The notes beneath the pieces were generated by a model. The model was not told where the DNA came from. It did not search any database and saw nothing but the letters and a program-made list of their open reading frames with translations. This document shows positions 21,325-55,087 of a DNA stretch of 64,000 nucleotides, piece after piece (the first letter of the stretch is position 1; each line of letters opens with the position of its first letter). The position numbers and the translations under genes are program-made. This DNA is from Leifsonia sp. CL147 (GTDB lineage: Bacteria; Actinomycetota; Actinomycetes; Actinomycetales; Microbacteriaceae): positions 310,678-374,677 of the forward strand of contig NZ_FOTM01000001.1 of assembly GCF_900114565.1 (NCBI RefSeq). Direction: 5' to 3'.

Positions 21325-21891
21325 TCAGGGTCGGGTGAACGGGAGCTGGTCGCCGTGCCAGAGGGTGCGGAACCGGTTGCGTGCCCGCATCGCGAGGATG
21401 GTGGTGGCGTTGTAGCTGATGCCGAGCTGTGACGCGGCGGCGCGCACGTCGTACCCATGGACGAGCATGAGAACGAGGATCTGCCGGTACTGCGGAGGCA
21501 GTTTTGCAAGAGTCTCGCGGACAGCGAGGCGGTCGAGCGAGGGCAGGGCATCGGGATCGTCGAGGCTGTGCTCGTCGAGCGTGACGGCAAGGCTGAGCGA
21601 CGCGCGAGCGCGAGCGTGCCGGATCGCTGAGCGGTGGACGGCGGTGGCCAGGTAGGGCCGGAATGCGGTCGTGGGGCCGCCGCCGGCCCGCAGGACCACG
21701 TAGACACTGGTGAAGGCTTCGGAGACCGGGTCTTCTGGGTCCCCGTGCGGATCGGTGTGCCGGGCGACGCTCAATGCCAGAGGTCGATGGCGGATCCAGA
21801 GTTCGGCGTAAGCGCTGGTCTGCCCTTGCCGAACCCGGGAGATCAGCTCCGCGTCGGCGTCACGAAACGTGTCGTCCATCACGACCCGCAC
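21325..21891 (-). CDS. Small sigma-70 family (ECF-like) sigma factor
   Basis: 188 residues from a GTG at 21891 (an ATG at 21879 is equally possible; neither has a strong RBS). Region 2 is at about residues 14-85 (AELISRVRQGQTSAYAELW ... SEAFTSVYVVLRAG ... FRPYLATAVHRSAI) and region 4 at about 120-180 (LAKLPPQYRQILVLMLVHGYD, then an HTH ASQLGISYNATTILAMRAR). It shares the GxGP...FRxYL signature with the fused sigma factor at 30574 but stops right after region 4, with no anti-sigma or membrane part. It lies 100 bp downstream of two small genes on the same strand that do not look like a classic anti-sigma factor. Confidence 0.82.
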   Translation of the reverse strand: MRVVMDDTFRDADAELISRVRQGQTSAYAELWIRHRPLALSVARHTDPHGDPEDPVSEAFTSVYVVLRAGGGPTTAFRPYLATAVHRSAIRHARARASLSLAVTLDEHSLDDPDALPSLDRLAVRETLAKLPPQYRQILVLMLVHGYDVRAAASQLGISYNATTILAMRARNRFRTLWHGDQLPFTRP

Positions 21892-21955
21892 TCAATGGGC
21901 TGCGCATCTGAGATCTCCTTCGCCGGTGACCGCATGTGGTCGGCCCACGCTATCA

Positions 21956-21971
21956 GCTCAATCGGTTGAGC
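21956..21971. promoter_or_regulatory. Short perfect inverted repeat between small gene and sigma gene
   Basis: GCTCAA-TCGG-TTGAGC, a 6-bp stem with a 4-base loop, 20 bp downstream of the small gene ending at 21992 and upstream of the sigma factor. There is no T-tract, so it could be an operator or a weak attenuator. Function unproven. Confidence 0.35.
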
Positions 21972-21991
21972 ACCATGAGATCGTGCGGTGA

Positions 21992-22198
21992 CTAGCCGGG
22001 AGCCACGGAAAGACGCTGCTTGAGGCTCTCGAACGTGTGGTCCTTACCGATGCCGCAGGTGCACGCCATGGCGATGGGGGCGCCATCTCTGCTGCTGAGG
22101 TAGATCTCGAGGTGAGCGCTCTCGTCACGGTCTCCGCCGGCGCCCGCGGCGAAGTGTTCGGGTTCTGCGCCTGGATCGGCGGGATCCGCGAAGGTCAT
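21992..22198 (-). CDS. Small acidic protein of unknown function
   Basis: 68 residues, acidic, with no membrane segment. The C-terminal half has a CTCGIGKDHTFESLKQRL stretch with a closely spaced Cys pair (CxC). It overlaps the upstream RHH-like gene by ATGA (22195-22198), which supports real translation by coupling. I do not recognise the family. Confidence 0.55.
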   Translation of the reverse strand: MTFADPADPGAEPEHFAAGAGGDRDESAHLEIYLSSRDGAPIAMACTCGIGKDHTFESLKQRLSVAPG

Positions 22199-22656
22199 CG
22201 CTGACGCTCCGGGTCTCGGTTGTCACGTCGAAGTGCGCCGGAGAGGATGCCGGCGGCGATGTCCTCACGGGGCATGCCGCTTTCGGCGCTGCGGATGGCA
22301 AGGTTGTCTGCGATCTCCCGGGGGACGTGGATGGTCAAGGTGACGGTGGCCCCTTCGAGGAACGGCCGGCCTCCCTGAGGCAGGGGGAGGCGGATGGAGG
22401 TCTCATTGGCGAGGAACCCTTTGCTGCGGAGCGTGTCCATGTAGCGGATCGCGCCCCGGCGGCGGACGGTGAGCGACCCGTCACGGATCGCCAAGGCCAC
22501 CCGGAGGGTCGGCACGTGCAGGGTGCTCGTCAGGCTGACGAGGGGCACGAATCGGGGCAGCTTCTCGATCAGGTCCTCGGCGATCGCCGCGCGCAGCAGG
22601 ACCCACGGCGGGTCATCGCCCGGGGGCGTATCTGCGGTCTTGGTCATCACGTCCAT
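22195..22656 (-). CDS. Hypothetical protein with ribbon-helix-helix-like C-terminus
   Basis: 153 residues. About residues 105-145 read as a beta strand (VTLTIHVPREIADNLAIRSA) followed by a helix with MPREDIAAGILSGALRR, the pattern of MetJ/Arc/CopG-type DNA-binding proteins. The N-terminal part is unassigned. GAGG sits upstream of the ATG. It is the first gene of a short minus-strand cluster with the 68-residue protein (overlapping) and the small sigma factor. It could be a local transcriptional regulator; the evidence is only the pattern. Confidence 0.6.
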   Translation of the reverse strand: MDVMTKTADTPPGDDPPWVLLRAAIAEDLIEKLPRFVPLVSLTSTLHVPTLRVALAIRDGSLTVRRRGAIRYMDTLRSKGFLANETSIRLPLPQGGRPFLEGATVTLTIHVPREIADNLAIRSAESGMPREDIAAGILSGALRRDNRDPERQR

Positions 22657-24074: not shown

Positions 24075-24507
24075 TTTCGAGACCTCCCGATCGTCACCGC
24101 ACAGCGCCTGCCGAAGTGGCATGCGACCCGACCCCGCTACGGCGGATCGAACGCAGCGCTAACAGTGGCGACCCTCCCGACCCGACCGAAAGTCCTCACT
24201 TACACGGACAGTGCAGTGCACTCGTTGCCGGGACGACGTGTCTGCGCCGACCGGCCGGCCGGACCAGCATCGCCTGTTGTCCACAGGCTGAGACGGGGAT
24301 CGCGCGACGTCGTCGGCATGCCGTCGGGCCGGTGCCGACCGTCCCGATCGGGCATGGCCCATACCCCCCGAACTGGGGCCGACAAAGCTGGGATCCAGGT
24401 GTAATCCATGGCTGCAATTCGGCTCTTAACCTGTGAGGCGGCTTATACGACCCTTCGGGGCGGTCGTCTCGCACTTCTCTGGAAGACCGCAAGGTGAGGG
24501 GCCGAGA
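24075..24507. other. Intergenic control region before the DUF11/sigma cassette
   Basis: 433 bp without a convincing gene. It holds a perfect odd palindrome AGTGCA-G-TGCACT (24210-24222), a plausible operator for the divergent flavoprotein gene. Closer to the cassette, a hairpin ACGACC...GGTCGT (24447-24452 with 24462-24467) lies in the leader of the DUF11 gene. No consensus housekeeping promoter facing right was found, which would fit an alternative sigma factor. Confidence 0.5.
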
Positions 24508-27500
24508 ATGAGTTCGAACACAGCAGCCGTACTGGAGCTGACCGGGGGGTCACGCGGGCCGCGTCACCGCGCTCGCCTACGCGATCGTCGCTGGCAGCCC
24601 AGCCGACTCGTCGCGTTCGTGCTCGCGATCACGACGGCACTCATCGGCATCACCATCGGCACCAGCCCTGCGTCCGCGGCTGCGGGTTCCCCATGGAGTA
24701 CGACGACCCCTCAGGTATTTATCTCGACGAACACTGCCGGCGGGACGACCCTTTACCAGGCGGTAACGGACGGAACGGGAACTACCACGTTCTCGGCACA
24801 GGGCGTAGCGAGCAACTTCGTGTACAACTCGATCGGGTTCTGGACGGTAGACGGGTACATCTACGGCGTCGCGTCGACTACTGGTACGACGAGCAGTGGG
24901 CAAACCGTCAACGCCGGCGACCTGATCCGCATCGGGCAGGGCGCATACACCACGCTAGTGAAGACGGGACTGACCCCAGGGACGACAGGCACTGGGACAG
25001 TGTGCGGCAACACGTATTACGTGATCGGCGGGGCCGGCGCCAGCACGACGCTTTACTCGTACAACCTCAGCACAGGCGTGGTGTCGACCACCACAATGTC
25101 GTCGGCAGCGCCTTCGAATTCCGCCGACTTCACCTGTATCGGTGGATTCCTGTGGGGTGCAGATAACGCCAACCACATCTACCGGCTGAACCCCACCACG
25201 GGTGCGCTGACGGTGTACACCGTCTCGTTCCTGGAGACCGGCAACCTCGGCTTCGGGGCGGCCTGGACCTACGGCAACGGCAACCTCGGCATCGATAACA
25301 ACTCCACCGGAGACATCTACCAGATTAAGATCACCAACCCCGGAGGCGCCACACCGACCTTCACCCTGGTGGCCATGTCCAACGGCCCCTCGGCTGGCGG
25401 CATCGACGGAACCTCAGTGCCGGGCAACCCAACGGATCTGTCGATCTCCAAGACCGGACCAGCAGCCTTCTTGCCCGGAAACACGATCAGTTACACCCTG
25501 ACGGTAACCAACAACGGAACAGGAACATCGTCCGGATTCGTTGTCTCGGACACCGTTCCTTCGCCGCTGACGAATGTCGCCGCCAGCAGCAGCGGCTGCT
25601 CGATCAGCGGGAACGCCGTCACCTGCGTCAGCGGCACTCTGGCGGTGGGGGCGTCGCAGTCGTTCACGATTACCGCCTCGACGCCTGCCGGTATGACGGC
25701 GTGCGTGACCAACACGGCCAGCGTCACGGCTAATGAGACGGATCCGACCAGTGGGAACAACACCTCGAGCGCGACAAGCTGCCCGGCGGCGGTGTCGTTG
25801 GTGAAGACGGCGAGTGTGCCCAGCTACAGTGCGGCGGGTCAGTCGGTGACGTACACGTTCACGGGGAAGAACACCGGTGCGGTGGCGTTGCACAATGTGC
25901 AGATCGCGGAGGGCACCTTCACCGGGTCGGGGACCCTGTCGGGGTTGACGTGCAACCCGGCGTTGGGTGGCACGCTCGCGGCGGGGGCGTCGATGGTGTG
26001 CACGGCGACGTACACGACGACGCAGACGGATGTGAACGCGGGCTCGTTGGCGAACACGGCCACGATCACCGGCCTGGACCCGTTGAACGAGACGGTGACC
26101 GCGAACAGCGGGGTGACGGTTCCTGCGACGCAGTCCCCGGCGATCGCGTTGCTGAAGACGGCGACGCCGACGACGGTGACTGCGGCAGGTCAGGCGGTGG
26201 CGTATTCGTTCCAGGTGACCAACACCGGGAATGTGACGTTGACCTCCGTGGGGCTGACGGAGAGCGCGTTCTCGGGCACCGGTTCTCTGTCAGCGATCTC
26301 CTGCCCGACGACCACGTTGGCGCCGGGCGCGTCGACGACCTGCACGGCCACCTACACGGTGACGCAGGCGGATGTGGATGCGGGGAAGGTCGACAACACG
26401 GCGACCGCGCACGGCACTCCGCCTGCCGGGGCTGCGGTGGTGTCCACACCGTCGACCGCGACGGTGACCGCGACTGCGGCGCCGGGTGTCGCACTGGCGA
26501 AGTCCGTGTCGCCGTCGACGGTGACCGCGGCGGACCAGTCGGTGACGTATTCGTTCAAGGTCACCAACACCGGGAACGTGACTCTCACCGGTGCGGGGAT
26601 CACCGAGACCGCGTTCACCGGGACGGGAACCCTGTCGGCGATCACCTGCCCGACGACGACGTTGGCGCCGGGCGCGTCGACGACCTGCACGGCCACCTAC
26701 ACGGTGACGCAGGCGGATGTGGATGCGGGGAAGGTCGACAATACGGCGACCGCGCACGGTACCCCGCCCACCGGGGCGGCGGTGGTGTCCACCCCCTCGT
26801 CGGCGGAGGTGCTGGCTCCGGCTGCGCCCACGTTGACGCTGGTGAAGACCGCGAGCCCGAACACGCCGGCCAGCTACACCGTGGGCCAGCTGGTGACGTA
26901 CTCGTTCCTGGTGACCAACACCGGCAACGTGACCCTGTCGAACCTGTCGGTGAACGAGACGGTGTTCACCGGATCCGGCACCATGTCGGCGACCACCTGC
27001 CCGGTCACCACGCTGACGCCGGGCGCATCGACCACCTGCACGGCCACGTACACGCTGACGCAGGCGGATATCGACGCGACCAAGGTGAACAACACGGCGA
27101 CCGCGCAGGGCACCCCGCCCGGCTCGAGCACCCCGGTGCTGAGCAACCCGTCGAGCACGCAGGTGCCGATCACCGGGAACCAGGCGATCAGCCTGCTGAA
27201 ATCGGTGTCCCCGTCGTCGGTGACCGCGGCCGGTCAGACGGTGACCTACTCGTTCCAGCTCACCAACACCGGCAACGTCACCCTCACCGGTGCGGGGGTG
27301 ACCGAGACCGCGTTCTCCGGGACCGGAACGATGTCGGCGATCTCCTGCCCGACAACGACGTTGGCGCCGGGGGCGTCGACGACCTGCACCGCGACATATG
27401 CGGTGACGCAGGCCGATATCGACGCCGGAACCGTGACCAACACGGCTCTCGCGCACGGCACCCCGCCCACCGGCCCCGACGCGGTCAGCACACCGTCGTC

Positions 27501-30114
27501 GGCGACCGTCACGGCGACCTCCCTCCCGGCGATCGGGCTGGTGAAGACCGGCGCGATCACGACCGGGACGGGGAACGCGGGGGACACGATCACCTACACC
27601 TTCACCGCGACCAACACCGGCAACGTCACCCTCACCGGAGTGGCCATCACCGACCCGCTTCCGGGACTGTCCGCCCTCACTTATGGCACCTGGCCGTCGG
27701 GCACCGCGGGAACGCTGGCTCCGGCGGAGTCGGTCACGGCGACCGCGACCTACACGATCACCCAAGCCGACGTGGATGCGGGCGCTGTGACCAACCTGGC
27801 CTCCGCGACCGGAACCCCGCCCTCGGGCCCGCCGGTGACCGGGACGGACGGGGTCACCATCCCCCTCACCCAAGCTGCGGGAATCACCCTGGTGAAATCC
27901 GCCACCCCGACGACGGTCACCGCGGCTGGTGACACCGTGACGTACTCGTTCGTGGTGACGAACACCGGGAATGTGACTTTGACCTCGGTCGGGGTCACGG
28001 AGACGGCGTTCTCCGGGACGGGGACGGTGTCGGCGATCACCTGCCCGGCCACGTCGTTGGCGCCGGGCGCGTCCACGACCTGCACGGCGACGTATGCCGT
28101 GACGCAGGCGGATGTGGATGCGGGTTCGGTGACGAACACGGCGACCGCGACCGGCACCCCGCCGGTGGGTGCTGCGGTGGTCAGTGCGCCGTCGACCGCG
28201 GTGGTGACCGCGACGTCGGCTCCGGCGATGTCGATTGTGAAGTCGGGGACGATCAGCTCGGGCACGGGGAACGCGGGTGACACGATCACCTACACGTTCA
28301 CGGCGACCAATAGCGGGAACGTGACGATGACCGGGGTCACGATCAGTGATCCGCTGCCGGGCTTGTCGGCGCTGACCTACGGCACCTGGTCGTCCGGGAC
28401 CGCAGGGACGCTGGCTCCGGGGCAGTCGGTGACGGCGACCGCGACCTACACGATCACCCAAGCGGATGTGGATGCGGGCGGTGTGACGAACGTTGCCACG
28501 ACGACGGGGAACCCGCCGTCGGGTCCGCCGGTCACCTCCCCGCCGGGTGGGACCACGATCCCGCTGCCGGCGACCCCGGCGATCACCCTGACCAAGACCG
28601 CCACCCCCACGGTGGTGACCGCGGCTGGTCAGAGCGTCGACTACTCGTTCGTGGTGACGAACACCGGGAATGTGACGTTGAGCTCGGTCGGTGTCACGGA
28701 GACGGCGTTCACCGGCACCGGGACCCTGTCCGCGATCTCCTGCCCGGCCACCACGTTGGCGCCGGGTGCGTCGACGACCTGCACCGCCACTTACACGGTG
28801 ACGCAGGCGGATGTGGATGCGGGGATGGTGACGAACACGGCGACTGCGACAGGGACCCCGCCGGTGGGTGCTGCGGTGGTCAGTGCGCCGTCGACGGCGG
28901 TGGTGACCGCGACGCAGGCGCCGGCGGTCACGGTGGTGAAGTCGGCGTCGCCGAACGCGCCGGCAAGCTACGTGGTCGGTCAGCTGGTGACGTATTCGTT
29001 CGTGGTCACCAACACCGGGAATGTAACGCTGTCGAACGTGTCGGTCACCGAGACAGCGTTCACCGGTTCGGGGACGATGTCGGCGATCACCTGTCCGGCG
29101 ACGACGTTGGCGCCGGGGGCGTCCACGACGTGCACGGCGACGTATACGTTGACGCAGGCGGATATCGATGCCGGTCAGGTGGATAACACTGCGACTGCGC
29201 AGGGCACGCCGCCGGGGTCGGGCACTCCGACGGTGAGTGGCCCGTCGAGTGCTCGGGTGCCGGCGTTGCCGGATCCGGCTGTCAGCCTGCTGAAGTCGGG
29301 GAGGGTCACCTCGGGCACGGGGAAGGCGGGTGACACCATCACTTACTCGTTCACGGCGACCAACACCGGGAACGTGACTCTGACCGGGGTGAGCATCACC
29401 GATCCGCTGCCGGGGCTGTCGGCCCTCACCTATGGTGCGTGGCCGGCGGGGGCGGGGACGTTGGAGCCGGGGCAGTCGGTGACGGCGACCGCGACCTACA
29501 CGATCGCCCAGGCCGATGTGGATGCGGGGGCTGTGACCAACCTGGCGACTGCGACCGGGAACCCGCCGTCCGGGCCGCCGGTGCAGGGGCCGGGCGGGAG
29601 CACGGTTCCGTTGCCGCACGCGCCGGGGGTGAGTGTGGTGAAGTCGGTGTCCGCGCAGGGTGTGGTGCAGGCCGGGCAGGCCCTGACCTACACGTTCGTT
29701 GTGACGAACACTGGTGACACCACTCTCACCGGGGTCACGGTCAGCGACCCGCTCCCGGGGCTGTCGGCGCTCACCTACGGGGTGTGGCCGTCCGGGACCA
29801 CCGGCACCCTGTTGCCGGGTGAGGAGGTCACTGCGACTGCGACCTACACGGTCACCGCGACCGACGCGGCCGCCGGGAAGGTGGTCAATACCGCCACCGC
29901 CACCGGGAACACCCCGGGCGGTGGGACGGTGCACACGCCCAGCAACACGGTCACCGTGACCGTGCAGCCACCGGCGCTGCTCACCACCGTCGGCGGGGTC
30001 CTCGCCCACACCGGTGCGGACATCTGGCCCTACCTGGGTGCCGGGGCGCTGTCGCTGCTCGCCGGGGCCGTGCTGCTGGGCACCGCGATCATCCGCCGGA
30101 GGAAGAGCGCATGA
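24508..30114 (+). CDS. LAXTG-anchored DUF11-repeat surface protein
   Basis: 1868 residues from the ATG at 24508, which has GAGGGG 6 nt upstream; a GTG at 24433 is in frame but lacks an RBS. The signal peptide is at about 31-56. Residues 57-310 form a non-repeat head that looks like a DUF6923/propeller-type domain. Thirteen DUF11 domains follow in two flavours: a Cys-pair type (SAISCPTT...TTCTATYT) and a Cys-free type ([16 protein letters not shown]). The C-terminus has sorting signal LAHTG (1832-1836), a hydrophobic segment and an RRRK tail, the LAXTG form used by class E sortases. The stop overlaps the next gene's start (ATGA). Repeats share long identical DNA, for example 83 bp at 26314-26396 and 26659-26741. 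Confidence 0.93.
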
Positions 30115-30569
30115 CCCGCGTCGCACGCGCACCCATCATCGGTGCCCTGGTCCTCGCGGCCGTCGGGGCAGGGCTGGCCGGGTGCACCCCGGCCAGCCCC
30201 CACCCCGCCCCGACCGGTGCGGCCAGCACGGCCACCCGCACCCCCAGCACCGGGCTGGTCCAGGACCTGACCCACCAGCCGGGGTCGCAGAAGGACTACG
30301 TGGGCGCGCTCAAAGACGTCACCGTCACCAGTTGCGACACCGGCAGTTCACCCGCCGCGTTCAAAGGGAAGGTGACCAACCCGACCACGAGTGAGCAGTC
30401 GTATCGCATCTACGTGTCCATCCTCGCCGGCGGGAACACCCTCGGCATCAGCGAAGTCGATATCGCCCATGTCCCCGCGAACACCACCAAAACCTGGACC
30501 GGAAGCCTGAAGCTGTCGAGCCCCGGAGCCCGCTGCGTCCTCCGCGTCGAACGCACCGACAACAACTGA
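30111..30569 (+). CDS. Small lipoprotein, FxLYD-like domain
   Basis: 152 residues. The signal peptide ends in lipobox LAGC (C25), followed by a Pro/Thr/Ser linker to about residue 60 and a small beta-sandwich ([12 protein letters not shown] ... [19 protein letters not shown] ... CVLRVERT) of the FxLYD/extracellular beta type, with two Cys that may pair. It overlaps the stop of the DUF11 stalk gene by four bases and is followed after 4 bp by the fused sigma factor, so all three are probably one transcript. A membrane-anchored outer-face partner of the sigma factor's external domains is an attractive role, but this is inference. Confidence 0.85.
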
Positions 30570-30573
30570 CCCG

Positions 30574-32256
30574 GTGACCGAGAAACAAGACACCGGCCGG
30601 CCCGCGTCCACCTCCAGCCGGTCACGCGCCCACGCCGGCAGGGCCTCGGATGCGGAGCTCATCCAGGCAGCGCGGGGTGGGGACAAGAACGCGTTCGGTG
30701 TGCTCTGGCAGCGGCACTGGACCGCCGGACGTGCGTTCTCCGCGGCGATCACCACACAGGATGCCGATGACGTGGTGTCGGAGTCCTTCGCCCGGATCTT
30801 CAAGGCCATGCAGTCCGGGAGCGGACCACGCGGCGCGGGATTCCGCTCCTATCTATATGCAGTGATCCGCAACACCTCGGCCGAGTGGGGGAGGCAGAGC
30901 AAGGAAGTCGCGGTCGAACCAGGAACACTGGACCTGATCGAGGACGACACCTTCGGCGAGAATGCGGTGATCGCAGCCCTGGATCGCACCCTCACCGCGA
31001 AAGCCTTCAGCACCCTGAACCCGCGGTATCAGGAAGTGCTCTGGTACAGCGAAGTCGAGCAACTGCCGCCTGCCGAGCTCGCACCCATCCTCGGGATCAA
31101 ACCCGGAACGGTCGCCGTGCTCGCCTTCCGTGCGAAGGAACGCCTCCGCCAGGCATGGATCCAGGCTCACGTATCCTCGGCCGAGCCCGGAACCGAGCAC
31201 CACTGGGTGGTCAGCCACGCCGGCGCCTACGCCCGCAACAAGATCGAGCCGGAACTCGCCTCCCGTGTCGAGGACCACACCGGCGAGTGCACAGCATGCG
31301 CTCTCGTCATCGGCGAAGCCACCGACGTCGCCGGCCGGCTGCGGGCCGTCCTGCCCCTGATGCTCCTGGGCGGCGGGGCCGCCTCCGCATACTTCCTCAA
31401 CGGGCCGGCACCGTCGGCTCAGGCGGCCACGCTCGAGCATGCTCACCAGGTCACAAGCTCCAGCCGCGCAGCACCCGTGAAGCACGCAGCTCTCCTCATC
31501 GGGCTCGTGGCCGGCCTGGGAGCAGTGCTCCTCGCCAGCTGGAATTGGCGGGGAGACCCCCGGCCCACCACCTACGAGGTCGCAGCCCCGACCGCCGCGG
31601 CCTCAGCCACCCCGGCGCCGACCCCGCCGGTTACGGCCCAGCCTGTGCCGACGCCCAACCCCGCACCCACGCCGTCACACCCCGTACCACCGCCTTCAGC
31701 CGCGCAGTCTGACTCCCCGCCGCCCCCGGTGGTCATAGTCGTGCCGATCGTGCCCGGGCCACCGGTGACCGTGACGGTCATCGACCAGGGAAGAACCGGG
31801 CTCTTGCTTCCTCTGCTGCAGGGAACCGCCGCGCCCGGCGCCCGCGTCGTCCTCAGCGACCAGGGCGGCGTCATGGCCTTTACCACAGCCGACGCCTCGG
31901 GAGCCTGGTCCGCTCCACCGCTGACCGGGCTCGCCGCCGGCGAATACACCCTCACCGCGGCGACCCCGACGGGCAGCACCACCGCCTCCCTCGTCGTAGC
32001 CACACCCCCCGCCCTCGGCTATACGGCCGCGGCGGGTGGACTCACCCTCACCCTGAACGGCGTGCCAGGCGCGACCGTCACCCTCCGCGGTGACGGGAAG
32101 GCCGGGACCTGGTCCGATCAGACCATCGGCAGCAGCGGGACCACTCAGGTATGGCTTCCCTGGACACCGGGAACGCACACCCTCACCGCCCTGTACGGCA
32201 CCGGCGACCGCACCGGAGCAGCAGTGAACGCAACGGTCACCATCCCCGCCTCCTGA
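30574..32256 (+). CDS. Membrane-tethered ECF sigma factor fused to zinc-finger anti-sigma-like segment and extracellular Ig-like domains
   Basis: 560 residues from a GTG 4 bp after the previous stop, with no strong RBS, so coupled translation is likely. Domains in order: sigma region 2 (about 27-110), region 4 (about 134-200), then a zinc-finger anti-sigma (ZAS)-like motif H210-x24-H235-x3-C239-x2-C242, a hydrophobic stretch (252-272), a stronger transmembrane helix (305-324), a Pro/Thr/Ala linker (340-395), and two Ig-like (Big/bacterial Ig) domains (about 400-475 and 480-560). The layout resembles actinobacterial ECF groups with long C-terminal extensions (ECF53-like). The predicted topology puts the sigma part inside and the Ig domains outside. 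It is the third gene of the cassette with the DUF11 stalk and lipoprotein. Confidence 0.9.
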   Translation: MTEKQDTGRPASTSSRSRAHAGRASDAELIQAARGGDKNAFGVLWQRHWTAGRAFSAAITTQDADDVVSESFARIFKAMQSGSGPRGAGFRSYLYAVIRNTSAEWGRQSKEVAVEPGTLDLIEDDTFGENAVIAALDRTLTAKAFSTLNPRYQEVLWYSEVEQLPPAELAPILGIKPGTVAVLAFRAKERLRQAWIQAHVSSAEPGTEHHWVVSHAGAYARNKIEPELASRVEDHTGECTACALVIGEATDVAGRLRAVLPLMLLGGGAASAYFLNGPAPSAQAATLEHAHQVTSSSRAAPVKHAALLIGLVAGLGAVLLASWNWRGDPRPTTYEVAAPTAAASATPAPTPPVTAQPVPTPNPAPTPSHPVPPPSAAQSDSPPPPVVIVVPIVPGPPVTVTVIDQGRTGLLLPLLQGTAAPGARVVLSDQGGVMAFTTADASGAWSAPPLTGLAAGEYTLTAATPTGSTTASLVVATPPALGYTAAAGGLTLTLNGVPGATVTLRGDGKAGTWSDQTIGSSGTTQVWLPWTPGTHTLTALYGTGDRTGAAVNATVTIPAS

Positions 32257-32463: not shown

Positions 32464-33081
32464 TCAGCGGACGAGGACTTCTACGCCGAGCACATTGCAG
32501 AAGGTGATGAGCTGTGCACGCCCATCGAGTGGGTCGCCAAAGTTCCAGCTATAGGTGGGGTCCCGGTCGAACGCATCGTCGGTCCGGTCCCCGAAGAACA
32601 CGTAAGCCCGGTCGGAGTTGCACTGTCTGCTCATGTAGACAAGTCCGTCGAAGCCGGCCGTGTGGGCTGCCTCGGCCCACAGAACCGTTCGGTCGTAGTG
32701 CGCGGCCGGCGTGGTCGTGACCTGGTCGGCGGCAACACCGAGCCTGCGCAAACCGAGTCCCATGAATGACGCGAGACGCACGTCTCGATTGGTCTTCAGC
32801 TGAGACATGCGGCGGTCTTGGTAAGCCGACTGGGTGAGCTGGCCTCCGGTGAGGGGAATGTCGTGGAGGAGGCTCTCGGCAATCGCTGCCCGCTCGGTCT
32901 CCGCCGCATACAGCACCGGCACGACAGGATCCCCGAAGAAGGCGAATCGGGTCCCCTTGCCCGCACCAGGATTAAACTCCTGTCCGCCCCGGTTCTTGTT
33001 GTGCACACGGAACAGTTCCTGACCCGCTTGCAGCTCGAAGGGTTCTGGATCGAACGGCTGGGGCGGATCAGGAACTACCAC
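32464..33081 (-). CDS. RES-domain toxin
   Basis: 205 residues from a GTG at 33081 that overlaps the antitoxin stop by 7 bases; the open frame continues upstream inside the antitoxin gene but those starts would be shadow. RES-domain features: ELFRVHNKN near the N-terminus, GKGTRFAFFGDPVVPVLYAAETERAA with the conserved Arg/Tyr/Glu region, and SESLLHD-like AESLLHDIP. Characterised members (MbcT, Res) deplete NAD+. It pairs with the upstream MbcA/Xre-type antitoxin. Confidence 0.87.
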   Translation of the reverse strand: MVVPDPPQPFDPEPFELQAGQELFRVHNKNRGGQEFNPGAGKGTRFAFFGDPVVPVLYAAETERAAIAESLLHDIPLTGGQLTQSAYQDRRMSQLKTNRDVRLASFMGLGLRRLGVAADQVTTTPAAHYDRTVLWAEAAHTAGFDGLVYMSRQCNSDRAYVFFGDRTDDAFDRDPTYSWNFGDPLDGRAQLITFCNVLGVEVLVR

Positions 33082-33683
33082 TCCACGCCCCAGGCGCGCT
33101 GGGCCACTTCGAGCACCTGCTCCGGTTCGGCGTCCAAGTGATCGACTGGTCGAGACTCGTCCTCGAAGTACGTGGTCGGGGAGCACAGCCAGAGAACCGC
33201 GTCCTCCAGGTCCCAACCGCTGGCCTGGGCCAGTTCCACAAGACGCTTCACGCTCGGGCGGACGCGACCGAGCGAGCGGTCGAACTGAAACCCTGGGTAG
33301 AGGAATTTGTTGAGACGACGGACGTACAGCAGCTCACCGCGACCGCGCATATCGTTGGCCAGCGATCGCATCGCCGTCGGCATCGACGCCGAGCCGAGCA
33401 GCTGTGCGACCTGGGAACTCGTGAGTAGTCCGAATTCGTCCTCGATCGACTTCACGGCGTTCTCTGTCGCCTGCGCCGCTCGCGCAGTCGCCGGAGGCAG
33501 CCTGTCGAATCGAGCCATCGCGTCAGTCAGTTCGTCCAAAGCGCTCCGCTCACGTGCGAGCTCGACCACGCGGCCGACTTCGTCCGGGGTGAGATCGACG
33601 CCGGCTTCCTCCAGGAGCGCTTCGCGGACACGCGCGTAGGTGCGTCCTCGCTCGCGCGACGGGCGCCGTTCGAGTGTCGCCAT
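33075..33683 (-). CDS. MbcA/ParS/Xre-type antitoxin
   Basis: 202 residues from the ATG at 33683 with GGAGG 7 nt upstream. A helical N-terminal region is followed by a middle HTH-like part (SSQVAQLLGSASMPTAMRSL) and a C-terminal segment (RPSVKRLVELAQASGWDLEDAVLWLCSP) like the toxin-binding domain of DUF2384/MbcA antitoxins. It overlaps the RES toxin gene by 7 bases with the antitoxin first, the usual order, and probably autoregulates the pair. Confidence 0.82.
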   Translation of the reverse strand: MATLERRPSRERGRTYARVREALLEEAGVDLTPDEVGRVVELARERSALDELTDAMARFDRLPPATARAAQATENAVKSIEDEFGLLTSSQVAQLLGSASMPTAMRSLANDMRGRGELLYVRRLNKFLYPGFQFDRSLGRVRPSVKRLVELAQASGWDLEDAVLWLCSPTTYFEDESRPVDHLDAEPEQVLEVAQRAWGVEW

Positions 33684-33939
33684 GGTGTACCTCCGATTCC
33701 TACGCTTCAGTGTAACGAAGGATTCGTTGGAATCATAGGCCTGCGCGCTGATTGGGATGAGCCAGGCGTGCTGCGCGTTCCTGCCCAGCCGCCTTGGCGG
33801 CGTGGTACCGCGCGACGACGGCCTCAGCGATGCACGCAATCGCCCGATGCGGGTGTAATGCTGCGCGATTCGCGGCCTCTTAACAAATAGGGGAACGGGT
33901 CAGTGCTTCCCAGGTGAGGTGAGGGAGGTTCATTCAGAA

Positions 33940-48078: not shown

Positions 48079-50826
48079 TCATGCGGATCGACGGCGTCGC
48101 ACCGTGATGGCGAGAATGATCACACCACTGACCAGCAAGGCGAGGGCAGCTGCAATGCCCGGGATGCTGTCACTTCCTGTAGAGGCCAGGTGGCCGTTCT
48201 GGCCGGAACCGGTCGCCGCCGGGTCCGACGGCTGGCCGGCGCCAGACGGGTCGGACGGGCCGCCCCCGGGAGGTGTGGGCCCGCCTGGTGCAGTGGCGGT
48301 GACGACCTGGGCGGTGGACGCGTTGGAGGTCGGAGCGGTCACACCCTCCGGCGCGGAGGCCGTGGCCGTCGCGGTGTTCGAGATCGAGCCCTGCGCCACA
48401 TCGGCGGCGGTGATCGTGTAGCCGGCGGTGCAGGTGACGCTCTGTCCCGGCGCGATGCTGGTGCTCGCCGGGCAGGTGACGGCGGAGAGGGTGCCGGACC
48501 CGCTGAAGCTGCCCTCGTCGATGACCGGGTCGGTCACGGTGACGTTGCCGGTGTTGGTGACCTGGAAGTCGTAGGTGAGCGCCTGTCCGGCCGTGTACGA
48601 GGCCGCCTTCGCGGTCTTCACGAGGGTGAGTGCGGAGGCACGCGGAACGGTCAGCGTCGCAGTCGAGTCCTTGGAGGTGACGGTGGCGTTCTGCGGCGAC
48701 AGGCCGGTCGCGGCGGCGGTGTTCGTGAGCTGTCCGGCATCCACATCCTGCTGGGTCACCGTGTAGTCGGCGGTGCAGGTCTCGACCTGGCCGGGCACGA
48801 GCGCGCCGGTCGGGCAGACGATCGCCGAGATGGTTCCGGTGCCGGTGAAGGAGCCTTCGTTCACCTGAACCGCGCTGATCGTGACATTGCCTGTGTTCTC
48901 GACACGGAAGCTGTAGACGACCTTCTGGCCGGCCTTCGTCACGGTCGCCGGGTTCGCCGTCTTGTCGAGCGTGAGCTCGGGGGCGGCGGGTGCGCTGGTG
49001 TCCACCTCCGAGACGGCGGAGACGACCGGGGTTGTGCTTCCGGTCGGCGTTCCGGACGCGGTCGCCGAGTTCGTCAGCCCGCCCGCGTCGACGTCGGACT
49101 GCTGCACCGCGTACGTCGCCGTGCAGTCCATCTGCCCGCCGACCGCAAGGGTCGTGTCCGGGCAGGTCACGGCCGACAGCGAGCCCGCGGGGGCAGTGCC
49201 GTCGAGCCGCGTGAACGGGCCGTCAGCGATCGCGATGCCGTTCAGCGCGACGTTGCCCTTGTTCTCCACGTCGAAGTGGTAGGTGAGCGTCTGACCAGCG
49301 ACGAGCTTCCCGGAAGCACCCAGGTCAGCGGACTTGACCAAGCCGATCCCGGGCGCGGGCGCCTGGGTGGGGGTGGTCGCAGTGTCCGTGTTCGACGTGA
49401 CCTGCTCGGAGTTGCCGACCGCAGTGCCGGTCGCGCTCGCGGTGTTGACCACGGAACCGGCTGAGACGTCGGCCGCGGTGATCGTGTACGACTGGTCGGC
49501 CGAGCAGGTCTCGCTCTGCCCGACGGCGAGCACGGTCAGCTGGCACGTCGCCGGACCGGCCTTCGGGTCATCGACCACGATGTTCGTCATCGGCACCTGA
49601 CCGCTGTTCGTCACCGTGAACGTGTAGGGGATGGTGTCCCCGGCGTCAACAAGCCCGTCGCCGTTCACATCGACCGGCGTGCCCGCGTGCTTCTGAAGAG
49701 TGAGCCCGCGCTGCAGACCGGTGTTCGTGATGGTGCAGTCGACCACGTCGCCGATGCCGACCTGCACATCCGCACTGGCACCGGCGGCGCCGCTGGGGAG
49801 GCTGGCATCCGCGGCGCCGTTGCGGGTGCAGGCCCATGCGTGGTCGTAATTGCTCAGCGAGCCGGCGGAGGCGGACTCGGCCAGCTGCAGCGTCGTGGCA
49901 CCGGTGTCGGCCACGAGCGGGATGTACCCGGTCGACGCGCTCGTGCCGCCGTTCGTGTCCGAACTGCCGAGCACGGTGCTGCCGTTGGCAACCGAGATGC
50001 CGAACGAATCGCCTGCGTACCCGCTGGTGACGGTCTTGTTCAGCTGCACGCTCGAGATCAGGACGCCGAATGCGACACCCTGCCGACCCGAGGTCGCGTC
50101 GCCCATCGACTGCGCGAAGGTCGCCGGGTGCGTGGAGGAGAGGATCGGCGTGCCGGTCTTCGTCCCCGTGCTCTGCCCCGTGCAGGTGACGGAGGTCGTG
50201 CCCACGCCGGTGAACCCGCCCGCACACGCATTGCCCAGGCCGTTGCCGCCGGCGTTCGCGGTGAGCGAGTCGATCGGCGCCGACGACGTCCAGGTGATCG
50301 ACTCGCCGTTGTCCGACGACTCGGCGTCCGCGCCCACGAGCGCGTATGCCGTGACCACGGCGCCGTTCCGGTCGGTCATCGTGATGTTGCTGAGCGTCAT
50401 CGTCGTCGTGCCGCTGCCGTTCGCCGTGTGATACAGAGCGGGCTTGCCAGCCACACCCGTGTAGTGCGAGTTGTTGCCCAGGTACGCGCCCGACCAGGTC
50501 GGCAGGGCGGTGGCCGCGATCGCGCGTCCTGAGACGGTCATCGTGTACGACAGCGTGTAGCCGCCAGGCACCGCGGCCGTGAACGACTGGCCTCCAGCGG
50601 TGGTCGCGACCGTCGGATCGTACGCGGACATGTCGAACCAGCACAGGCTCTTCGCGTACGTGCCGGTTCCCACCGTGGCGAAACTGCAGCTCGCGGGTGA
50701 AGCAGCACTCGCAGCACCGACCGGTGCCAGCGCGAGAAGGCCGGCGGTCGCCAGCGCGACAGCGGCGACGGCGGAAAGCAACCGGGAGACGGGTCGAGGC
50801 AGGCGGAAGCCAATCGAGGCGTTCAT
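48079..50826 (-). CDS. LAXTG-anchored DUF11-repeat surface protein
   Basis: 915 residues from the ATG at 50826 (AAGGA 5 nt upstream); the open frame continues upstream without an RBS. The signal peptide is at about 17-43. A unique head of about 330 residues (choice-of-anchor type) precedes four DUF11 domains (starting LTLQKHAG, IGLVKSAD, LTLDKTAN, LTLVKTAK). A Pro/Gly/Ser linker leads to sorting signal LASTG (880-884), a hydrophobic helix and RRRRSA tail, the class E sortase pattern. It is divergent from the DUF11 protein at 51221. Confidence 0.93.
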   Translation of the reverse strand: MNASIGFRLPRPVSRLLSAVAAVALATAGLLALAPVGAASAASPASCSFATVGTGTYAKSLCWFDMSAYDPTVATTAGGQSFTAAVPGGYTLSYTMTVSGRAIAATALPTWSGAYLGNNSHYTGVAGKPALYHTANGSGTTTMTLSNITMTDRNGAVVTAYALVGADAESSDNGESITWTSSAPIDSLTANAGGNGLGNACAGGFTGVGTTSVTCTGQSTGTKTGTPILSSTHPATFAQSMGDATSGRQGVAFGVLISSVQLNKTVTSGYAGDSFGISVANGSTVLGSSDTNGGTSASTGYIPLVADTGATTLQLAESASAGSLSNYDHAWACTRNGAADASLPSGAAGASADVQVGIGDVVDCTITNTGLQRGLTLQKHAGTPVDVNGDGLVDAGDTIPYTFTVTNSGQVPMTNIVVDDPKAGPATCQLTVLAVGQSETCSADQSYTITAADVSAGSVVNTASATGTAVGNSEQVTSNTDTATTPTQAPAPGIGLVKSADLGASGKLVAGQTLTYHFDVENKGNVALNGIAIADGPFTRLDGTAPAGSLSAVTCPDTTLAVGGQMDCTATYAVQQSDVDAGGLTNSATASGTPTGSTTPVVSAVSEVDTSAPAAPELTLDKTANPATVTKAGQKVVYSFRVENTGNVTISAVQVNEGSFTGTGTISAIVCPTGALVPGQVETCTADYTVTQQDVDAGQLTNTAAATGLSPQNATVTSKDSTATLTVPRASALTLVKTAKAASYTAGQALTYDFQVTNTGNVTVTDPVIDEGSFSGSGTLSAVTCPASTSIAPGQSVTCTAGYTITAADVAQGSISNTATATASAPEGVTAPTSNASTAQVVTATAPGGPTPPGGGPSDPSGAGQPSDPAATGSGQNGHLASTGSDSIPGIAAALALLVSGVIILAITVRRRRSA

Positions 50827-51220
50827 AACATCCTTGCAGCAGCATCGACCGCGGGCGGCGACCGATGGAGTCGGGTAATCGGGTAGCTCGGCTGTTGCAT
50901 GCAGCACGTATCAGCGCCTACCGGCGAGAAAGATACGCATGTATTTGTTGCGGACGGGAGCATAACACACTCGTGCAACGACGGCGGGACGGAGACTCCT
51001 GGCGAACGCTTCGGGGTGTTGTCCGCGGTGGGACACATCACGAGGCCGCAGCCGCGGATACCCTGGTCGCGACGTTCCCAGGGAGGGTGAAGGCGGGGTG
51101 AAAGACGAGGTGAACGGTCGTTCTACCCGCTAGTCTGCAGCTTTATAACCACATTGACAGGTGGTTTGGAGCTTTCAAGCATTCACGTCGCGCCGACCTG
51201 CGACAGCTAGGGGAACGTCT
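50827..51220. other. Divergent control region between two DUF11 surface-protein genes
   Basis: 394 bp without a gene. It contains a near-perfect palindrome TGTTGCATGCAGCA (50893-50906) near the minus-strand gene and GAACG-GT-CGTTC (51112-51123) near the plus-strand gene, followed by a TATAAC-like -10 around 51143. No conventional -35 pairs with it. Confidence 0.4.
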
Positions 51221-54200
51221 GTGTCGAAAACTGCCCGTGGCTTTTGGCCCGCATCCGCCCGTCACGTCGAATCCGTGCGGCGACCCTCGCGGTGGCTGTC
51301 CGGGTTGCTGAGCGCCGCGCTCGTCGCAGCGAGCCTCGCGCTCGTGGGGACGGTAGCTGCAGTACCGGCGCCGGCTTCGGCCGCCCCGGTCAGTGAGTGC
51401 AGTATCGCCTCGAACGGCTCCTTCGAGGAGCCGAACATCCAGGGCGACCCGGCCAACCCGCAGCCGGGGGATGCGTACATCAACGGGTACAACCAGTTCC
51501 GTACCAGTAATGCCACGATCAGCGGTTGGCAGGTTGTTGCGGGAACGATCGATCTGCTGCGTTACTACAACAACGCGAGCGATGGAGCCCAGAGCATTGA
51601 CATGTGGGGTACTGCCCCGGCGACAATTCAACAGACCTTCACGGGACTGGTTCCTGGTGCCCAGTACAGCTTCTCGGTTGACTACAGCGGTCTGTCGAAG
51701 ACCCAGTCGATTGCGACCGTGCAGTTGAGTCAGGGTGGTGCCTTCACGACGCTGGCGACGTTGTCGCCGGTCGCGGATGGCGTTCTGACCAACCCGACGG
51801 GTGGCACCCCGACGACGCCCTTCGAGACGGTCACGTGGTCCACCTACTCGAACACGTTCACAGCAACCGGAACCTCGGCGACCGTTCGCCTCCAGAACAC
51901 CGCGGCGCCCGCCGTCAATAACACGGGATTGTTCGTCGACAACTTCACGTTCGCCAGCGACGGTCCGTGTCAAGACTTCGGAGACGCGCCCGACAGCTAC
52001 GGCACGAGCCTTGCTGCCAACGGCGCTCGCCACATCGTCACCGGGTATGACGCGACGAACCACACCGCTCCGGTGATGCTCGGGTCAGCTATCGACACTG
52101 AGGCGGACGGTCAGCCCACCGCGTCAGCGAACGGCGATGACGTCGCCGGCATCGACGATGAAGACGGAGTTGCCGCTCCCATCACCATCACGCAAGGTCA
52201 GCCGTCGAGCGTGACGGTCTCGGCGACCAACAACTCGGCCGTCGACGTCACACTGGCCGGATGGATCGACCTGAACGGGGACGGACAGTTCCAAACCGCG
52301 GAGCGCGCCACCGTCACGGTCCCGGCGAACTCCGGAACCTCTGACTACGTGCTGAGCTTTCCCGCCGGCACGCTGACGGCCGACAGCTACGCACGGTTCC
52401 GTGTCTACGGGGCGGTCGAGGCCGACCCGCAGCCGATCGGCAATGTGACCGGCGGCGAGGTCGAGGACTACCCGGTCATCGTGCAGATTCCCGGCCTGTC
52501 GGTCGTCAAGTCGGCGTCGCCCTCCGATGCGGCCTCGTACACGCTGGGCCGTGTCATCACCTACACGTTCGTCGTCACAAACACCGGCAACGTCCCGCTG
52601 ACCGGCGTGGTCGTCAACGACTCGGGCTTCACCGGAACGGGCACGCTTGGTCCGATCACCTGCCCGCCGGGCGCTGACACGCTGGCGGCAGGCGCACAGG
52701 TGTCCTGCACGGCCACCTACACGCTGACCCAGGCCGACGTGGATGCCGGCAAGCTGACGAACTCCGCCACCAGCACAGGCACCCCACCGGGAAGTCCGGA
52801 CATCACGACGCCGCCGTCCCAGATCCAGATCCCGGTCAACCCTGCACCCTCGATCGACCTCGCCAAGAGCGCGACGCCTGCCACAGCGAACCGGGCCGAC
52901 GACACCATCGCCTACTCGTTCCGGGTCACGAACACCGGAAACGTCACCTTGAGCGACCCGACGATCAGCGAGACGGCCTTCTCGGGAACGGGAACGGCAC
53001 CCGCCGTGACCTGCCCGACCGGATCGATGTTGCCGGGGCAGGTCCTCACCTGCACTGCCGGCTACACCTTGACGCAGGCTGACGTCGACGCCGGTACGGT
53101 GGTGAACACCGCCACTGCGTCGGCCACCCCGCCGACTGGTGCGGCTCCGGTCTCGGCCCCGTCGACAGCGGCGGTGTCCATCCCCGCGGCCGCCGGGCTC
53201 ACCGTAGCCAAGACGGCCGCGGTCACCGGAGCCGGCGTCGCCGGTGACGTGGTCACCTACTCGTTCCTGATCACGAACACCGGGAATGTGACCATTGCCG
53301 ACGCAGGTGTCACCGAGGGGGCCTTCACCGGCACCGGAACGCTCGGCCCGGTCACCTGTCCCGCCGGAGCCGCCTCGATGGCCCCCGGGGATGCCGTGAC
53401 CTGCACGGCCGCCTACACGCTGACCCAGGCCGACGTGGATGCCGGCTCGATCAGCAACACCGCCACGGCGACCGGCACGCCGCCAGGCGGGGGCGTCCCG
53501 CCCGTGTCGCCTCCGTCGACGAGCACCACACCGCTGACCCGGACCGCGGACCTGACGGTCGCGAAGACGGCAACGCCCACGACCATCACCACGGCCGGCG
53601 CGCTCATCGACTACAGCTTCCTGGTGACGAACACCGGAACAGTCACTCTCACGGACCCGGTCGTCAATGAGACGGCGTTCTCCGGTACCGGGCCTGTCCC
53701 GACCGTGGTGTGCCCGCCCGGTACCACCCTCGCTCCGGCTGCGACAGTGACGTGCGACGCGTCGTACACGGTCACCCAGGCAGACGTCGACGCCGGCACG
53801 ATCAGCAACACCGCCACCGCGACTGCGACCCCGCCGACCGGTGTGACTGTCCCCGTCTCCGACCCGTCCAGCGCGAGCGTCGCCGCGACCGCCGCACCGG
53901 CGCTGACAATGGTCAAGTCGTCGGATGTGAGCACCATCACCCACGCCGGCCAGAAGGTGACCTACACGTTCCTGGTGACGAATACGGGCAACGTGACCCT
54001 GTCGGGCGTCGCCATCGACGAGGGCGCGTTCTCCGGCACCGGGACCCTCCCGGCGGCCGTGTGCCCGCAGCCGAACCTCGCACCCGGCTCGAACGAGACG
54101 TGCACTGCCGTGTACACGGTGACTCAGGCTGACGTCGACGCGGGCACCCTCACCAACACCGCCACGGCAACAGCGACCCCGCCAGGGTCCTCCACTGTCG

Positions 54201-55087
54201 TGGTCTCGCCTCCGTCGCCCCACACGGTGACGGTGGATCAGAACCCGGGTCTTTCGGTCGTCAAGTCGGCCGCCCCGGCCGCCCCGGCGGACTTCCACGC
54301 GGGCGAAGTGATCACCTACTCGTTCGTGGTGACCAACACCGGCAATGTGACCATGTCCGGCGTCGCGATCGCGGAGGGGGCGTTCACCGGTTCGGGCACT
54401 CTCCCCGCCCCGACCTGCCCCGCAGGTGCCGCATCACTGGCACCGGGCGCGCAGGTCATCTGCACCACCGACTACACGGTGACGCAGGCTGACGTCGACG
54501 CGGGCACGATCGCTAATACCGCGACCGCGACCGCGACACCGCCAGGGTCGGAGTCCCCGGTTCCCTCGGACCCGTCGTCGGTGACCGTGCCGGAGCCGGC
54601 CAGGCCCGCGGCGACGGTCTTGAAGACCGCTGACACGCAGAAGATCACGCAGGCCGGCCAGGTCATCCACTACTCGTTCACCGTTACGAACACCGGAAAC
54701 ACGAGTCTGAGCGACCCGAAGATCAACGAAGGCGCGTTCACCGGTCACAGCACCGTCACCACACCGGTGTGCCCGGCCGACCCTGCCGGCCTCCTCCCTG
54801 GTCAGATCATCGTGTGCACCGCCACTTACACGGTGGTCCCGGCGGACCTCACGGGCGAGGCGCTGGCGAACACGGCCACCGTCACGGTGACGCCACCCGG
54901 CGGTGACCCGATCACCTCGGATCAGTCGACTGCGCGCATCAGCGATGTGGCCGCACCAGTCAAGCCTGCCGACCCGCTCGCGTCGACCGGATCCACGATC
55001 GCTTGGGGTATCGGAGCTGCGGCACTCGCCCTGTTGATAGCGGGTGGGGCTCTGCTGCTGATTCGCCGCCGCCGCGCGACCGACTGA
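51221..55087 (+). CDS. LAXTG-anchored surface protein: DUF642-like and GEVED heads plus seven DUF11 repeats
   Basis: 1288 residues from the GTG at 51221, which has AGGGGA 6 nt upstream (the frame extends 20 codons further without RBS). The signal peptide is at about 22-55. Head domains: a DUF642/choice-of-anchor type jelly roll (about 60-245, with NGSFEEP ... ISGWQVVAGTIDLL) and a GEVED domain (about 246-415, DFGDAPDSYGT ... GGEVEDYP). Seven DUF11 domains follow, each with a Cys pair, then LASTG (1253-1257), a membrane helix and RRRR tail. The head suggests glycan or wall binding; the stalk lifts it off the surface. Confidence 0.93.
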   Translation: MSKTARGFWPASARHVESVRRPSRWLSGLLSAALVAASLALVGTVAAVPAPASAAPVSECSIASNGSFEEPNIQGDPANPQPGDAYINGYNQFRTSNATISGWQVVAGTIDLLRYYNNASDGAQSIDMWGTAPATIQQTFTGLVPGAQYSFSVDYSGLSKTQSIATVQLSQGGAFTTLATLSPVADGVLTNPTGGTPTTPFETVTWSTYSNTFTATGTSATVRLQNTAAPAVNNTGLFVDNFTFASDGPCQDFGDAPDSYGTSLAANGARHIVTGYDATNHTAPVMLGSAIDTEADGQPTASANGDDVAGIDDEDGVAAPITITQGQPSSVTVSATNNSAVDVTLAGWIDLNGDGQFQTAERATVTVPANSGTSDYVLSFPAGTLTADSYARFRVYGAVEADPQPIGNVTGGEVEDYPVIVQIPGLSVVKSASPSDAASYTLGRVITYTFVVTNTGNVPLTGVVVNDSGFTGTGTLGPITCPPGADTLAAGAQVSCTATYTLTQADVDAGKLTNSATSTGTPPGSPDITTPPSQIQIPVNPAPSIDLAKSATPATANRADDTIAYSFRVTNTGNVTLSDPTISETAFSGTGTAPAVTCPTGSMLPGQVLTCTAGYTLTQADVDAGTVVNTATASATPPTGAAPVSAPSTAAVSIPAAAGLTVAKTAAVTGAGVAGDVVTYSFLITNTGNVTIADAGVTEGAFTGTGTLGPVTCPAGAASMAPGDAVTCTAAYTLTQADVDAGSISNTATATGTPPGGGVPPVSPPSTSTTPLTRTADLTVAKTATPTTITTAGALIDYSFLVTNTGTVTLTDPVVNETAFSGTGPVPTVVCPPGTTLAPAATVTCDASYTVTQADVDAGTISNTATATATPPTGVTVPVSDPSSASVAATAAPALTMVKSSDVSTITHAGQKVTYTFLVTNTGNVTLSGVAIDEGAFSGTGTLPAAVCPQPNLAPGSNETCTAVYTVTQADVDAGTLTNTATATATPPGSSTVVVSPPSPHTVTVDQNPGLSVVKSAAPAAPADFHAGEVITYSFVVTNTGNVTMSGVAIAEGAFTGSGTLPAPTCPAGAASLAPGAQVICTTDYTVTQADVDAGTIANTATATATPPGSESPVPSDPSSVTVPEPARPAATVLKTADTQKITQAGQVIHYSFTVTNTGNTSLSDPKINEGAFTGHSTVTTPVCPADPAGLLPGQIIVCTATYTVVPADLTGEALANTATVTVTPPGGDPITSDQSTARISDVAAPVKPADPLASTGSTIAWGIGAAALALLIAGGALLLIRRRRATD

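Follow-up and report, generated by a model that had tools for sequence, protein, structure and literature searches.

The stretch of DNA analysed here, hereafter the window, comprises 64,000 nucleotides from Leifsonia sp. CL147 (genome G000 in our analysis; 3.78 Mb, 38 contigs), which belongs to a group of soil actinobacteria. On its + strand lie three consecutive, abutting genes, encoding a predicted wall-anchored stalk protein (P0001), a lipoprotein (P0002) and an extracytoplasmic function (ECF) sigma factor fused in one chain to an anti-sigma domain and a predicted exported immunoglobulin (Ig)-like part (P0003). The stalk gene (24508-30114; 1868 aa) begins with ATG behind a Shine-Dalgarno-like AGGTGAGG and shares the four bases ATGA (30111-30114) with the lipoprotein gene (30111-30569; 152 aa). 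A 4-bp gap (30570-30573) leads on to the sigma gene (30574-32256; 560 aa), whose GTG at 30574 is the sole start codon ahead of the conserved domain. A first-pass annotation of the sequence had described three genes joined by this overlap and gap, and the open reading frames (ORFs) bear it out.

Domain searches of P0003 placed sigma region 2 (Sigma70_r2, residues 60-105; 30751..30888, +) and region 4 (r4_2, residues 143-191; 31000..31146, +) in the same chain, both above the cut-off and both already named in the annotation, with a region 4 recognition helix that has diverged from that of the family. Downstream is a zinc-binding anti-sigma (ZAS)-type zinc site (31198..31299, +). Among the 45 relatives that possess this domain, H235, C239 and C242 are invariant (45/45), and the ligand at position 209 is Cys in 28 and His in 17. 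Three of the four ligands proposed by the first-pass annotation therefore stand, whereas the conserved first ligand is H209 rather than H210, so that the site reads [C/H]209-x25-H235-x3-C239-x2-C242. These four ligands make up the zinc site of a class I (ZAS) anti-sigma domain. The zf-HC2 model matched residues 211-243 of P0003 weakly and its relatives above the cut-off.

The zinc site is followed by a weakly hydrophobic, conserved segment (residues 258-276; 31345..31401, +), a main transmembrane (TM) segment predicted to run N-in/C-out (residues 305-323; 31486..31542, +), a Pro-rich linker (residues 340-398; 31591..31767, +) and two Ig-like domains, predicted to lie outside (31774..32244, +). 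The single TM helix of the annotation thus corresponds to residues 305-323, and the second conserved segment at 258-276 had been missed. The annotation had also called for a structure prediction of the full protein. In an AlphaFold2 model built with 40 relatives, the sigma and zinc domains had predicted local distance difference test (pLDDT) values >90, residues 240-274 formed one long anti-sigma helix with which segment 258-276 is continuous, residues 275-400 were disordered, and residues 401-557 folded as two beta-sandwich (Ig-like) domains with a pLDDT of ~95. The individual domains are confident; for the whole-chain arrangement of sigma2, sigma4 and anti-sigma the predicted template modelling score was 0.39. 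Foldseek matched the N-terminus to sigmaE/RseA and SigW/RsiW, and the Ig pair to the C region of a biofilm-associated protein and to the SiiE adhesin. Big_13 and Big_6 matches were weak.

The stalk starts with a DUF6923 head domain (residues 71-306; 24718..25425, +), continues through 13 matched DUF7507/DUF11 repeats (25435..29960, limits approximate, +) and ends in a LAHTG sorting motif (30001..30015, +), which is followed by a TM helix and a basic RRRKSA tail. It therefore has the features of a LAXTG (class E) sortase substrate with 13 DUF11 repeats, as first annotated, and three sortases are encoded in the window's genome. Against the Microco_LAVTG model the sorting signal scored 26.1 bits, just below the cut-off of 27. 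By BLASTP, the stalk head showed no homology to the beta-propeller surface protein that lies beside the nearest relative of the sigma gene (L039). Two further, divergent LASTG stalks with DUF7507 repeats are present in the window at 48079-50907 (-; additional SpaA_3 domain) and 51161-55087 (+; additional GEVED/DUF642 domains), both without a sigma or lipoprotein partner.

The second gene does encode a lipoprotein, with the lipobox LAGC and lipidation Cys at C25. P0002 has no family match in Pfam or NCBIfam, and a single-sequence model gave an Ig-like beta-sandwich whose structure matches were weak. Homologs occur in 8/28 genomes of the genus and 22/300 of the family Microbacteriaceae, across at least 12 genera; they share the invariant lipobox Cys, two more Cys residues (Cys75 and Cys142 in P0002) and the C-terminal end CVLRVER. 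In 23 of 29 lipoprotein loci, the window counted, the gene directly 5' carries a sortase signal, and in 20 of the 29 the two genes overlap by exactly 4 bp. The window follows this pattern, its lipoprotein lying directly behind a DUF11-type sortase substrate. Stalk and lipoprotein are thus a recurrent, conserved module, usually overlapped by 4 bp and read here as coupled in translation.

Fused sigma factors were found in 23/28 genomes of the genus at E <= 1e-40, and the family search gave matches in 49/60 relatives at E <= 1e-3, plain sigma factors included. In Leifsonia, genes with a sortase signal made up 15 of the 86 immediate neighbours of fused sigma genes vs none of 373 control genes (Fisher 4e-12; the controls come from 20 arbitrarily chosen regions, and the orthologous loci counted are not independent). 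This pairing is seen in ~7 sigma lineages, that of the window included, in varied orientations and with surface proteins as different as Big_8+SdrD_B, DUF5979, Ig/propeller and 2,500-aa LASTG proteins; one Leifsonia relative has a full pilus operon in the order sigma, DUF11 protein, SpaA pilin and sortase. A genome of another genus of Microbacteriaceae (G030) possesses a large paralogous array of 23 fused-sigma copies (L056, L097-L101, L318-L333). It was read as plain ORFs; the gene caller, trained on high-GC loci, misses genes in lower-GC genomes. About 15-16 of these 23 copies adjoin 1,600-2,300-aa LAXTG/LSXTG proteins (one an 861-aa frame), and in at least 11 the stalk is directly upstream on the same strand. 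Five of the copies overlap their stalk by 4 bp, i.e., the stalk-sigma arrangement of the window without the lipoprotein. Two G030 stalks that were examined have bacterial Ig domains (Big_9/cadherin-like and Big_6, respectively). The link of the sigma factor to a wall-anchored stalk, which the first-pass annotation had drawn from this one operon, is borne out by the strong association of the sigma family with genes for wall-anchored surface proteins.

Upstream regions of Leifsonia fused-sigma genes carry GCGTCATG-N17-TCTC, which resembles the -35/-10 pair of an ECF promoter. It was present in sense orientation in 14/43 and in antisense in 10/43 of these regions, vs 1 and 2 of 347 control genes, and a version of it occurred in 30 copies genome-wide (seven genomes) vs one for the reversed pattern. 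One relative (G015) has two outward-facing copies, one leading to the sigma gene and one to a divergent LAHTG gene. Away from sigma loci, the promoter lies 52-54 bp before LARTG and LAHTG adhesin genes in two genomes and, on contig C37 of the window's genome, 111 bp before an operon of an LPFTG surface protein and a sortase. Its presence at both sigma and adhesin genes supports autoregulation in the family together with a surface-protein regulon. A palindromic operator reading of GCGTCATGACGC was dropped because this element is better accounted for as one of the two blocks of an ECF-like promoter, held apart by a spacer of constant length (17 bp).

Some copies of the promoter have other surroundings. 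In a clade linked to nagA (L046, L048, L052, L055, L068, L093) it faces away from the sigma gene and reads toward the nagA 3' end, where its target may be a small gene or an antisense RNA. In L045 (7694; G018:4,124,693) and L054 (~10900; G025:2,458,900) it lies between convergent sigma and 2,500-aa LASTG genes and faces the sigma gene from its 3' side. In L303 and L312 (G002:C11:166 kb and G011:3,975 kb) it is found ~45 bp before a gene whose conserved product of 55-57 aa has the motif CxC...IGRTHTYEEAV.

The closest described architecture is that of ECF52, whose only characterised member is SCO4117 of Streptomyces coelicolor (PMC5826349). Like it, P0003 is an actinobacterial single chain in which sigma regions 2 and 4 bear a C-terminal extension composed of a zinc anti-sigma domain, a TM region, a Pro-rich linker and an external domain. 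Proteolytic release has been proposed for SCO4117 (PMC5826349). However, the external part is a carbohydrate-binding module in ECF52 and two Ig domains in P0003, the only lectin-like domain (LamG) being on a paralog in the same genome. P0003 further differs in its two hydrophobic segments, in its operon with a stalk and a lipoprotein, and in its multi-copy family paired with sortase substrates; its relatives have GCGTCATG-N17-TCTC where ECF52 has CSGY-17-SRHA (PMC5826349). According to the sections of PMC8999054 drawn on here, ECF53 and ECF48 likewise combine a C-terminal zinc-finger anti-sigma fusion with 1-2 TM helices and a long extension, and activation by proteolysis is predicted for ECF48/52/53; those sections do not mention the pairing with sortase substrates that the P0003 family displays. 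They also describe IutY (ECF243) of Pseudomonas putida, in which the sigma factor and a membrane-bound anti-sigma part are fused and for which release by Prc/RseP proteolysis is an experimental precedent, albeit in a Gram-negative iron-uptake system without Ig domains or sortase partners (PMC8999054). In SigI/RsgI of Clostridium thermocellum, present in several copies, the sigma factor is controlled by a membrane protein that senses through its extracellular part (PMC10766802, PMC12203970), and RseP cleavage frees the inside part of RsgI (PMC12203970); there, however, sigma and anti-sigma are separate proteins and the regulon consists of cellulosomal genes. By its shared features, group phylogeny aside, P0003 is best read as ECF52/53-like. 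The fused architecture is thus already known, whereas the open-access literature searched gave no description of fused sigma factors systematically paired with sortase substrates, of the family promoter or of the couplet formed by stalk and lipoprotein.

Taken together, the data lead us to favour, with moderate confidence, a reading of P0003 as a membrane-anchored ECF52/53-like fused sigma factor that acts as a dedicated regulator of sortase-anchored surface proteins and is located in the operon of one such fibre. The domains, the operon layout, the recurrence of both pairings and the shared ECF-like promoter were observed computationally, and the recurrence of the sigma-surface gene pairing in relatives suggests that the cell tracks each of its own surface proteins individually and regulates it. 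Several observations weigh against this. Across 29 lipoprotein loci and ~120 fused-sigma loci, the order stalk-lipoprotein-sigma was found only in the window's genome, and no fused sigma gene lies behind any of the other couplets; the three-gene order for which the first-pass annotation had proposed a search is not supported as a conserved unit. Outside Leifsonia and G030 most fused sigma genes have no adjoining surface gene, and one large Leifsonia sigma clade adjoins nagA instead. The best score for the family promoter ahead of the window's operon was 3.0, equal to the background median, and the two hydrophobic segments make the topology formally ambiguous from sequence.

An alternative is an ordinary ECF52-type envelope sigma factor that came by chance to lie behind a couplet: it would regulate unrelated envelope or developmental genes, as the pleiotropic SCO4117 might suggest (PMC5826349), and the operon would be housekeeping-driven. 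The unique gene order, the upstream region and the nagA-linked and LamG clades, which have no surface neighbour, are all in keeping with such an origin. We nevertheless consider it unlikely, since the pairing with surface genes recurs in several Leifsonia lineages and in G030, and the family promoter is found at adhesin genes and at a pilin-sortase operon. The window's operon is the junction of two recurrent modules, i.e., stalk plus lipoprotein, and a fused sigma factor beside a sortase-anchored surface gene.

The operon's upstream region (24123..24507, +) contains, in place of the family promoter, a weak candidate -10, CGTCTC, ~44 bp before the ATG; together with TATACGACCC at -35 spacing, it was too weak for a promoter claim. 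A scan for sigma-70 promoters in this region found 0 vs 0.6 expected in shuffled sequences, and a terminator scan gave only a chance-level result. The first-pass annotation had taken the absence of a clear housekeeping promoter as a sign of self-control; because only 0.6 are expected even in shuffles, this absence is uninformative. Self-control thus finds support in the autoregulation-like promoters shared across the family and none in the window's own upstream region. Both the window's sigma factor and L039 have altered region 4.2 recognition helices, and L039 likewise has no family promoter motif. Given these two features, a switched promoter preference in this pair is plausible.

With regard to topology, two hydrophobic segments are conserved in nearly all fused-sigma relatives. 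If both spanned the membrane, the chain would re-enter the cytoplasm ahead of the Ig domains, and P0003 would be no surface sensor. The single long helix that AlphaFold2 makes of residues 240-274 is compatible with this. By a rough biological-scale estimate of insertion free energy (dG) in 106 relatives, however, segment 258-276 is a weak TM candidate (family median 2.7, window 5.0) and segment 305-323 a good one (0.3 and -0.6, respectively). The flanks of the latter, positive before and acidic after in the same 106 relatives, follow the N-in/C-out pattern. An outside C-terminus is also indicated by its K-poor, Cys-free and Pro/Thr-rich composition, by the exported-type domains of relatives (Laminin_G_3 at the C-terminus of the own-genome paralog, G000:C28:188 kb; DUF11 in L100) and by a fused sigma factor of G030 (L330, 8788-10431; C1, ~1,969,800), which ends in LTLTG, a TM segment and RRRR, scores over the cut-off for LPXTG_anchor and is possibly linked covalently to the wall. 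A double crossing is therefore quite improbable. The simplest topology would have the sigma and zinc domains inside, one crossing at 305-323 and the Ig domains outside, as the first-pass annotation had proposed and as these predictions support; segment 258-276 is perhaps an anti-sigma helix or a re-entrant piece.

That the window's sigma factor has lost its original function and is on its way to decay would fit its long branch in the tree, its altered region 4.2 and the missing family promoter, but is very unlikely in view of the intact frame, the full set of four zinc ligands, above-cut-off matches to both sigma regions and a well-folded model.

For a dedicated surface-protein regulator, every step beyond domain anatomy, i.e., sensing, proteolytic release and sigma action on surface genes, is one that we infer. 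The ZAS-type zinc domain of the same chain would keep the sigma part inactive at the membrane, and the outside Ig domains would act as sensors of the envelope, of the lipoprotein or of the stalk fibre. A signal would then trigger proteolysis of the tether, probably involving an M50 site-2 protease, of which a single one was found in the window's genome (contig C20). The freed sigma part would direct transcription of surface genes, its own operon probably among them, using a promoter unlike the family consensus. If so, a single polypeptide could let a Gram-positive cell monitor each surface fibre from outside, which would be simpler than a route by way of sigma factor, anti-sigma factor and receptor. 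Almost nothing is known of what fused ECF sigma factors sense and control, and the gene neighbours described here provide candidate targets (sortase-anchored fibres and pili), a candidate promoter and a conserved lipoprotein partner. More tentatively, and with some doubt on our part, there may be a general actinobacterial system in which every adhesin has a tethered sigma factor dedicated to it, which reads fibre attachment, tension or correct anchoring and feeds back on the fibre gene. The sigma factor would then sometimes itself be sortase-anchored to the wall, as in L330, and the ~23 copies of G030 would form a genome-wide array of sensor-adhesin pairs.

Two neighbouring loci of the window were also noted. 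Just behind the operon, at 32464-33839 (-), an unnamed ORF of 254 aa overlaps the upstream end of a gene for a RES-domain protein, and the two may form a toxin-antitoxin pair. At 21325-22656 (-), a stand-alone ECF sigma factor of 188 aa is encoded behind 153-aa and 68-aa proteins, the latter of which ends in CTCGIGKDHTFE... and resembles the small CxC proteins of L303 and L312.

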